Shown in pieces: positions 29,470-31,477 of a stretch of 52,074 nt of DNA. This DNA comes from an uncultured Pseudomonadota bacterium. Lineage in GTDB: Bacteria; Pseudomonadota; Alphaproteobacteria; RF32; CAG-239. Location of the stretch: the NCBI GenBank assembly GCA_949292375.1, contig CASEZG010000017.1, positions 1-52,074 of the forward strand, read 5' to 3'. Each line of letters opens with the position of its first letter. The stretch's first letter is position 1. The notes beneath the pieces are model-generated. The model did not search any database and was not told the origin of the DNA. It saw only the letters and a list, made by a program, of their open reading frames with translations. The position numbers were made by a program, and so were the translations under genes.

Positions 29470-29694
29470 ATGGAATATTTAACAAAAACATCTTTTGTTT
29501 TAACCATTATCGGAGCACTAAATTGGGGCTTAGTCGGATTTTTTGACTTCAATTTAGTTGCTTTTTTGTTTGGCAGTATGAGTGTTTTATCACGCGCTGT
29601 TTACATTTTAGTCGGAATTGCTTCTTTAGTTGTCATTTATGCCGCTTTAACTGAAAATTCCGAAACCCAATTTGTCAAACAAACCAATAAATAG
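29470..29694 (+). CDS. DUF378 small membrane protein
   Basis: 74 residues with two transmembrane helices. TIIGALNWGLVGFFDFNLVA is the DUF378 mark, and the second helix follows SRAVYILVGIASLVVIYA. The family is widespread in the inner membrane and has no known function. AGGAG lies before the ATG. It ends 5 bases before the first hairpin of a structured intergenic stretch. Confidence 0.88.
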   Translation: MEYLTKTSFVLTIIGALNWGLVGFFDFNLVAFLFGSMSVLSRAVYILVGIASLVVIYAALTENSETQFVKQTNK

Positions 29695-29698
29695 ATAT

Positions 29699-29826
29699 CC
29701 CCCAGTAAACTGGGGGTTCTATAACAGCTACCAACCTTACGGTTTGACCACGCTCGTTGGCGTGGAGCGGTGTTGTTCCAACACCTTGGCATTCAGCCCC
29801 GAGTAAACTCGGGGTTTTCTGTAAGG
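29699..29826. other. Cluster of stable hairpins, possible structured RNA or repeat element
   Basis: Four perfect or near-perfect hairpins in 128 bases: CCCCCAGT-AA-ACTGGGGG (29699-29716), CCACGC/GCGTGG (29748-29765), GGTGTTG-TTC-CAACACC (29769-29785) and CCCCGAGT-AA-ACTCGGGG (29797-29814). An outer helix CCTTACGG with CTGTAAGG (29735-29742 and 29819-29826) would close a three-way multibranch around the last three. The first and last hairpins are near copies. They could be terminators, a repeat element or a noncoding RNA; strand is not clear. Confidence 0.55.
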
Positions 29827-29840
29827 CAACTAATATTTCA

Positions 29841-29874
29841 ATCTCTCCTCTCCAAAGAGGAGAGATTTTTTTTT
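29841..29874 (+). terminator. Intrinsic terminator
   Basis: Stem ATCTCTCCTC / GAGGAGAGAT around a 6-base loop, followed by nine T. Ends the DUF378 transcript or the structured element. Confidence 0.92.
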
Positions 29875-30276: not shown

Positions 30277-30302
30277 TTTTCCAGACACTATTACCCCGCA
30301 GT

Positions 30303-30336
30303 TTCTGTATTAGTTTCCCATTATGCTTAGCTTCCT
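30303..30336. repeat. Direct repeat, copy 1 (duplicated holA end)
   Basis: A 24-base sequence beginning TTCTGTATTAG and ending CATTATGC, followed by AGCTTCCT, also found at 30428-30460. Copy 1 lies between the small membrane gene and holA. It is followed by a palindrome AGCTTC-CT-GAAGCT (30329-30342). Confidence 0.8.
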
Positions 30337-30374
30337 GAAGCTCGGAGAATGAGGTAAATAATAAGAATCAAAGG

Positions 30375-30418
30375 CAAAAGTACCACAGCGTACAAAAAAG
30401 TACGTGAGGACACTTTTG
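30375..30418. other. Long imperfect hairpin between the direct repeats
   Basis: Outer arms CAAAAGT / ACTTTTG (30375-30381 and 30412-30418) and inner arms CGTAC / GTACG around AAAAAA (30389-30404), with a bulged middle. It lies between the two copies of the repeat, 28 bases past the holA stop on the minus strand, so it may terminate holA. Confidence 0.45.
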
Positions 30419-30427
30419 ACCTGCTAC

Positions 30428-30460
30428 TTCTGTATTAGTTTCCCATTATGCGAGCTTCCT
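30428..30460. repeat. Direct repeat, copy 2 (spans the holA stop codon)
   Basis: Same 24-base sequence as 30303-30326 plus AGCTTCCT. This copy contains the TAA stop of holA (30446-30448) and its last codons, so copy 1 appears to duplicate the tail of holA 125 bases downstream. Confidence 0.8.
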
Positions 30461-31477
30461 AGCCGCTGATGATATCTGCATCAAACAATAAGATACCACT
30501 TCTTGAACCGGCATATTGGTTGTCTTGCAGTCTCGTTCACATTTATACAGAAGCTCTAAAACACTAAGAAGCTTTTCACGCGGCCAAATAGATACCTGAC
30601 GCTTAAAGCTCTGTTCCCTGAAAAAAATAATTCTGGGCTGTAGCTTAAAGACTGCCTTATCCAAGGTTTCACCATTTTCCATATAAGCTTTGCATTGCAA
30701 AATCTTATTAAAATGATACGTCAAACTCCGCACAATAGAAATTGGCTCATTTCCCTCATTAACCAACTTATTAAATGCCGCCAACGCTTTTTCGGCATAC
30801 CCACCGGCAGCAGCATAACAAATATCATCTCCGGAAGAAGACGAAGCATCGCTGATAATCTTTTGCACATCATCAACCGTAACATTTTTGTGGTCACCCA
30901 AATAAGTTATCAACTTCTCAATTTCGCCTGAGTTACTCATACGGTCATTAGATAGTCTGGAACACAGAAGTTGCAAAGCCTCATTTCCGATGGTAATACC
31001 ATTTTCAACAAATTTTGCTCTGGTTGAATTAAAAATATCTTCATCTCTGTCTTCATAACAAGCAATCGCCGCCATATTATCGCTATCTTCAGCCAACTTG
31101 ACCAAAGAAGACTTTTTATTCAGGCTTCCGGAGGATATAATCAATAAGGTATCAGAAACATTGTTCTCAAAAAGGGCTTTGATATGCTTAGTCAGATTAT
31201 TATCTCCGTCGCGAATAACAATCACGCGACGTCCCCCCATTAAGGATTGTCCGTTATACTCACCAAACAAAATCCCAGCATCAGCATTAACATCGCCGCC
31301 ATTCAAATATACTACCCGAAACGGATCATACAAATCAGGACAAATTGCCGCCGTAAACTTTTTAACATATTCTGCTTGCAAACCCTCGTTGCTGCCATAG
31401 ACAACGACACAACGCAAAACATCGTCCGGCTTTTTCAAATATTTATCTATTTGTGCCTGTTTATATTGCACTGGCAT
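30446..31477 (-). CDS. holA: DNA polymerase III subunit delta
   Basis: 343 residues, the size of the clamp-loader delta subunit, which opens the beta clamp. The N-terminal part has VVVYGSNEGLQAEYVKKF and FRVVYLNG; the middle has NEALQLLCSRLSNDRMSNSGEIEKL and the C-terminal helical domain has EPISIVRSLTYHFNKIL. It overlaps lptE by 17 bases and follows leuS, the standard order in Gram-negative bacteria. The last codons lie inside a sequence repeated downstream. Confidence 0.94.
   Translation of the reverse strand: MPVQYKQAQIDKYLKKPDDVLRCVVVYGSNEGLQAEYVKKFTAAICPDLYDPFRVVYLNGGDVNADAGILFGEYNGQSLMGGRRVIVIRDGDNNLTKHIKALFENNVSDTLLIISSGSLNKKSSLVKLAEDSDNMAAIACYEDRDEDIFNSTRAKFVENGITIGNEALQLLCSRLSNDRMSNSGEIEKLITYLGDHKNVTVDDVQKIISDASSSSGDDICYAAAGGYAEKALAAFNKLVNEGNEPISIVRSLTYHFNKILQCKAYMENGETLDKAVFKLQPRIIFFREQSFKRQVSIWPREKLLSVLELLYKCERDCKTTNMPVQEVVSYCLMQISSAARKLA

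Follow-up and report, generated by a model that had tools for sequence, protein, structure and literature searches.

Layout and fold of the hairpin cluster

The analysed window is a stretch of 52,074 nucleotides from an uncultured alphaproteobacterium (contig CASEZG010000017.1), in which the ORF list and a Pfam scan place a DUF378 gene (PF04070) at 29470..29694 on the plus strand. A sequence-only reading had reported a cluster of hairpins behind this gene, and the two do adjoin, the TAG stop codon (29692-29694) lying within the element delimited below. The layout then described, a front hairpin followed by three hairpins enclosed in an 8-bp helix, was recovered both by locating its parts and by folding 29691-29832. 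The front hairpin, CCCCCAG-TAAA-CTGGGGG, occupies 29699-29716, and the near-identical loop claimed for a second hairpin is indeed found 98 bases further on, in CCCCGAG-TAAA-CTCGGGG (29797-29814). The 8-bp helix is formed by CCTTACGG (29735-29742) and CTGTAAGG (29819-29826), and encloses the hairpins 29748-29765, 29769-29785 and 29797-29814. When the plus strand of 29691-29832 was folded alone as RNA, the minimum-energy structure reached -62.0 kcal/mol (z -6.76, with none of 200 shuffles as good) and contained the 8-bp helix together with all of these hairpins. Folding with flanks (29660-29860) gave z scores of -5.49 as RNA and -6.29 as DNA, again with 0/200 shuffles as good in either case; here a local hairpin, AACC-TTAC-GGTT (29733-29744), replaces the 8-bp helix.

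An absence of covariation, together with an absence of transcription, had been named as evidence against the proposal. Covariation is present: across 63 distinct related elements the local hairpins show it strongly, two-sided changes being seen at 26 of 37 pairs, with 0/500 shuffles as high. In the 8-bp helix pairing is possible in 89.8% of cells, and two-sided changes are seen at 2 of 8 pairs, a value reached by 291/500 shuffles; three other measures stand somewhat above shuffling (cells paired, 5/500; two-sided cells, 15/500; covariation score, 38/500). Covariation thus gives this helix little backing. An alternative enclosing helix around the core, GCTA/TGGC, taken from the flanked RNA fold, was rejected: 82.4% of its cells pair, yet it has no backing from covariation, with 328, 477, 254, 275 and 203 of 500 shuffles as high on five measures.

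Boundaries and parts of the element

The unit to which the cluster belongs is a non-autonomous element of 142 bp at 29691..29832. On the minus strand, the tnpA-sense strand of its autonomous relatives, it runs 5'-TAGTTGCC...GATATCTAT-3'. The interval first proposed, 29699-29826, enclosed a real cluster but was slightly too narrow.

The boundaries were set by empty sites of sibling copies. The site of L014, at a gene end that is ftsY-like by eye, is empty in L279, L280 and L274 (92-96% identity), that of L003 is empty in L272 and L273 (97%), and that of L004 is empty in L286, L288 and L289 (81-90%), where the cut agrees with that of L014 and L003. The site of L047 is empty in three genomes, with a junction too diverged to place the cut, and among the six joined sites searched no spanning empty site was found for L011 and L046. 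Clean insertion of the element 3' of TTAT on the tnpA strand is visible at the empty sites, with no target duplication beyond the letters common to the cleavage sites. The joined queries followed a TATTA model and carried three extra junction letters, which appear as gaps in the empty-site alignments. That model, and before it a left cleavage site (CL) of TATT derived from the diverged site L229 of the MAG that also contains L105, were overruled by the close empty sites giving TTAT, a boundary that also fits the TAG stops. At the window locus itself, DUF378 orthologues without the element occur in three close relatives; the place agrees and the site has diverged.

On the minus strand, the right cleavage site (CR) is CTAT (29691..29694; ATAG on the plus strand), as read from the empty sites and from the IS608 letters (PMC5934647). 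It is followed by the right-end subterminal hairpin (29699..29716), whose sequence recurs unchanged in several of the 142-aa TnpA-coding elements described below, and by the putative right guide (GR) AGAA (29717..29720; TTCT on the plus strand). The left-end subterminal hairpin (29797..29814), delimited by covariation and by the ends of TnpA-coding relatives, lies beside the putative left guide (GL) AAAA (29815..29818; TTTT on the plus strand); both guides were read from column counts. The left cleavage-site flank (29833..29836) has ATAT instead of the usual TTAT, according to the window sequence and flank counts. Between the ends stand three core hairpins to which no strand is assigned, namely AACC-TTAC-GGTT (29733..29744), which rests on the flanked fold and covariation and competes with the 8-bp helix, and, both with compensatory changes, CCACGCT-CGTT-GGCGTGG (29748..29765) and GGTGTTG-TTC-CAACACC (29769..29785). 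Terminal inverted repeats are absent: the ends ATAGATATCC and, on the opposite strand, TAGTTGCCTT are unlike by eye, and no inverted pair of at least 12 bases was reported between the element ends. The element has the features of a PATE (palindrome-associated transposable element) of IS200/IS605 type, with subterminal palindromes near both ends (29699-29716 and 29797-29814) that covary on the 63 elements, a length of 142 bp that is too short for a transposase, and ends that are the same as, or related to, those around TnpA ORFs.

TnpA-coding relatives

Longer elements (about 560 bp), which share the right hairpin and whose left end is related, encode a 142-aa ORF on the minus strand. The two 142-aa proteins that were scanned match PF01797 (Y1_Tnp) with E values of 1.1e-30 and 2.4e-31, and one of these TnpA proteins aligns with ISHp608 TnpA over residues 6-132, including the DHxH motif, with its HUH histidines, and the C-terminal Tyr, which we take to be the catalytic residues. 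A second TnpA group (151 aa, 67-70% identity), recognised through sequence search alone, is flanked by ends that follow the same layout. The tnpA-coding elements resemble the 142-bp element only at query positions 1-34 and 100-139, and the left-end hairpin of the 142-bp element (CCCCGAGT) differs from that of the 142-aa IS (CCCCCATT). In the window's own genome, an incomplete assembly, no cognate TnpA gene was found; it holds one distant TnpA (33% identity) and, near a contig end (C4), the end of a cognate element. Mobilisation would presumably occur in trans.

A more distant TnpA group (L325-L328, L336, L337 and L339; 37-40% identity) has mostly 166-aa frames and other hairpin ends, and by eye several of these loci adjoin an A run and a hairpin. 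In L028 a full-length IS ends a 257-aa ORF, trmB-like by eye, the stop being the TAA in the right-end hairpin loop.

Dispersal in the genome and the family

A 146-base query gave 11 matches in the window's own genome, corresponding to about nine places; two of the matches lie at a contig end, as expected for a repeat. Among relatives, matches were found in 21 of 57 genomes, all within the family (33 genomes) and in 0/24 outside it. Family-wide, 63 of 152 genomes match, part of them only through end fragments common to the IS. Among copies assigned to a genome, one identical 142-bp sequence is shared by 7 genomes from 6 genera, suggesting that it has spread between genera recently. The right-end word was found in at least 87 stretches; among the matches listed, the named contigs are all labelled (Alpha)proteobacteria, uncultured or MAG, and some come from deer or reindeer samples. 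No exact match of two element patterns was found in IMG/VR, and no match of the element in plasmids. The sequence-only reading had left open a repeat element or a structured RNA. Dispersal and empty sites uphold the repeat; the RNA half is not supported, given Rfam matches below gathering scores, element ends at weak core matches and unbiased wobble pairs, all taken up below.

Several further observations were made in the course of these searches. Four unannotated 'Bacteriophage sp.' scaffolds from human faeces in a phage collection (MT839539, MT838190, MT835812 and MT837319) match the element at 76-87% identity, and may be bacterial DNA. In L106:251-524 a diverged copy is followed head to tail by a near-consensus copy, the letters ATA being common to both. 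At each of four loci (L220, L221, L271 and L041) the right-end hairpin and its complement form a 34-bp palindrome, perfect or nearly so, that lacks both core and left end; these are possible minimal derivatives of the element. Two further sequences are dispersed as well. The window region 30280-30470 is a second repeat, with an internal direct repeat TTTCTGTATTAGTTTCCCATTATGC and 16 own-genome matches including itself, the others at 68-94% identity. The upstream flank of L046 (query 1885-2022) contains a third, of about 70-140 bases, which takes many of the 24-56 matches listed per genome in six of the seven genomes of the genus.

The core hairpins: DNA or RNA structure

The roughly 50 bases between the ends (29733-29785) have no match in tnpA-coding elements. 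Among 56 core sequences the cells that pair make up 93.1%, and two-sided changes are seen at 11 of 20 pairs, with 0/500 shuffles as high. When the changes were placed on a tree, the core hairpins showed 9 two-sided events and 68 pair-breaking or pair-repairing ones; each of four slid controls had 2 events of the first kind, and the controls had 78 to 103 of the second. The covariation signal of the core is real, though few events carry it and many copies have decayed. Two-sided changes could also arise from copying errors in which one arm serves as the template for rewriting the other.

The strong fold (z -6.76) and the covarying core are also what a structured RNA downstream of the DUF378 gene, acting as a 3'-UTR regulator or an sRNA, would display, and this copy, standing between a stop codon and a terminator-like hairpin, is probably transcribed on the plus strand. 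Against such an RNA stands an Rfam scan of the window, which returned only two tRNAs and no family at its gathering score in the cluster; seven sub-threshold matches in the region lie far below their cut-offs, the lowest E value being 0.012 (20.1 bits, against 49.5 required). Nor is the element present at the orthologous place in relatives, while it is repeated at many unrelated places. The search for the structure in relatives that the sequence-only reading had proposed was carried out with a covariance model of the core, run with strict filters, and gave matches in 17 of 57 relatives and none outside the family. Each of 13 weak core matches read by eye has at least one element end, with one end indistinct in L305, L306, L308 and L310. 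Selection on a plus-strand RNA predicts more G-U than A-C among minority pairs; the core has 27 G-T and 37 A-C, with no bias to the would-be mRNA strand. Since G-U pairs are not favoured, a DNA-level structure is, and a structured RNA appears very unlikely.

A structured segment within an IS605-type element could alternatively be a TnpB-type guide RNA whose nuclease has been lost, a reading to which we give next to no weight. The TnpB guide RNAs extend into the right flank, whereas the core lies inside both end hairpins, and the curated cut-off of PF07282 was passed by 0/136 family genomes compared with 6/14 control genomes. Below that cut-off, matches were found in 30/136 family genomes; in 29 of them the open frame measures 63-83 aa, and in G015 it measures 596 aa.

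The covariation fits DNA-level hairpins at least as well as RNA. By analogy, we favour a core that may serve, for example, as a second hairpin beside the left end, like the one in IS608 (PMC5934647).

Guide letters and target choice

In IS608, the left cleavage site TTAC goes with the guide AAAG and the right site TCAA with the guide GAAT (PMC5934647), and the relation of guide to cleavage site is worded as 'linear and cross complementarity' (PMC8266576). From the IS608 letters we deduced a rule by which the first guide letter pairs with the second cleavage letter, the second with the first, and the fourth with the fourth. As this rule demands, letters one, two and four of AGAA fit CTAT, and AAAA fits TTAT. 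The guide AAAA stands after TTAT in 63 of 66 copies, a set chosen by a pattern requiring that guide, so that variant left ends fall outside the count; the window copy, after ATAT, is one of the three exceptions. The 142-aa IS carry the guide ACTA after GTAT or GTTT (predicted, GTNT) in 8 of 9 places, and the 151-aa group combines AAAA with TTNT in 4/4. Position 1 of CL is associated with guide type (Fisher 3e-9). In the right guide the third letter, which has no partner under the deduced rule, varies (44/9/6/2 of 61), and the other three are kept in 58-59 of 63 copies. Judged from these letters, the guides fit the IS608 pairing code as deduced, and the natural pairs AAAA/TTAT and ACTA/GTNT amount to a test in nature of that code.

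The same letters bear on a REP/BIME sequence spread by a domesticated TnpA-REP. The short intergenic palindromes, the relatives with Y1 transposases and the four 34-bp palindromes made from the right end alone would suit such an origin. REPs are marked by the tetranucleotide GTAG (PMC8266576), whereas most copies of the element carry AGAA and AAAA on the 5' side of their hairpins; the two ends differ, and related TnpA genes lie between like ends, as in an ordinary IS. A REP/BIME origin is accordingly most improbable.

Terminators and stop codons at the insertion sites

On the target side of the window copy, 7 nt from the cut, lies a terminator-like hairpin with a 12-bp stem followed by a T run (29840..29867, plus strand), recognised from the sequence; hairpins like it stand at the orthologous places in the element-free L049-L051. 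In a first set of 74 of 80 rows, from which one chance alignment, one partial copy and the short-flank copies had been left out, a hairpin better than -8 kcal/mol within 50 nt was present on the target side in 66/74 copies, on the other side in 15/74, and in 13/56 window control sites. A larger set comprised 111 elements (105 short, 6 long), of which 104 had enough flank, and a hairpin of that strength was found in 92/104, compared with 30% of 872 same-word sites. The first G-C pair lies 5-12 nt from the cut in 86/104 copies, against 97/449 intergenic ATAAAA sites (Fisher 2e-31). In these counts the copies are not fully independent, ORFs were masked crudely, and control sites were drawn from the window and from pattern-selected contigs. 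The TnpA-coding relatives also stand beside hairpins (12/13 flanks by eye). Statistically, the association with terminators is strong.

Among 40 long-flank copies, 20 have open frames of at least 60 codons ending at the element on both sides, 7 have one on the left alone, 10 have one on the right alone, and 3 have none. Of 31 frames reaching the element on the plus strand, 13 end in its TAG, 2 in a hairpin loop and 16 before or at its edge; the empty L014 and L004 sites read TAA where the element gives TAG.

The association could partly be survivorship. In its full form, the same PATE would be moved by a TnpA that needs only TTAT, and insertions away from terminators would have been lost. Disruptive insertions are purged from small, dense genomes, and terminators are common, safe, T-rich spots; the control, moreover, masked ORFs only crudely. 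The excess over intergenic sites of the same word, the one-sidedness of the hairpin and the shared habit of the TnpA-coding relatives speak against survivorship as a substitute for a targeting step, and we regard it as a real possibility that falls somewhat short of even. Terminator targeting by IS200/IS605 elements is not stated in the literature searched, which was covered in part, and we do not claim that it is unpublished; PMC7290912 mentions once that end hairpins act as terminators.

Proposed mechanism

It is close to certain that the feature is a PATE-like IS200/IS605 derivative. Very probably it is a 142-bp non-autonomous element moved by a TnpA from elsewhere, with sites chosen by guides and a target beside a terminator. 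An IS200-group TnpA made elsewhere would bind the hairpins of both ends in single-stranded form. It would cleave the left flank 3' of TTAT and the right end behind CTAT, and join the element ends to a single-stranded circle, which would then be pasted 3' of TTAT in another single strand. Cleavage sites would be selected through the four-letter guides 5' of the hairpins (AAAA left, AGAA right), following the pairing code of IS608. Insertion would occur preferentially a short way 3' of a terminator-like hairpin, in a T tract whose last letters are TTAT, which would put copies between gene ends and terminators, and where the target overlaps a TAA stop the element's ATAG would restore a TAG stop. 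The element also adds hairpins between the stop codons and terminators of gut-bacterial genes.

A more specific version is offered tentatively, and we lean against it: that the terminator hairpin is actively used as target, with conversion of TAA to TAG stops, and that the core hairpins tune the transposition complex as single-stranded DNA. At the right end a hairpin is followed by 8 nt, the last four being CTAT; a terminator hairpin with a stretch of mostly 8-12 nt that closes in TAT mimics this arrangement, which would make every terminator a docking site. For the second hairpin of IS608, tuning of the transposition complex has been proposed. If this version is true, the safe-harbour rule would consist of a guide tetranucleotide plus a hairpin.

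Comparison with known systems

A close parallel is to the PATEs of Haloquadratum walsbyi (PMC3119063), which likewise lack terminal inverted repeats, have palindromes near both ends, cause no target duplication, are too short for a transposase and have ends resembling IS605-type transposons. In contrast to these, the present element resides in a gut alphaproteobacterial family, stands mostly beside terminator-like hairpins and has a covarying hairpin core between its ends. With IS608 (ISHp608) of Helicobacter pylori it shares hairpin ends and four-letter guides, 5' of the hairpins, that match the cleavage sites (PMC5934647), and the Y1 TnpA of its relatives aligns with that of ISHp608 as described above; unlike IS608, it has neither tnpA nor tnpB, its target is TTAT rather than TTAC, and a hairpin adjoins the target. 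REP/TnpA-REP systems similarly involve palindromes handled by Y1 transposases (PMC8266576), whereas our element has no GTAG guide, has two distinct ends, and has relatives with tnpA between such ends.

A further likeness is to group IIC introns, group II intron retroelements that insert after intrinsic terminators and, sitting a short distance 3' of terminator hairpins, avoid coding sequence (PMC3240598). The element is not itself such an intron, having 142 bp without a long ORF or reverse transcriptase, and no intron family appeared in the Rfam scan. Active terminator recognition, if true, would make it a DNA-transposon counterpart of the group IIC introns.
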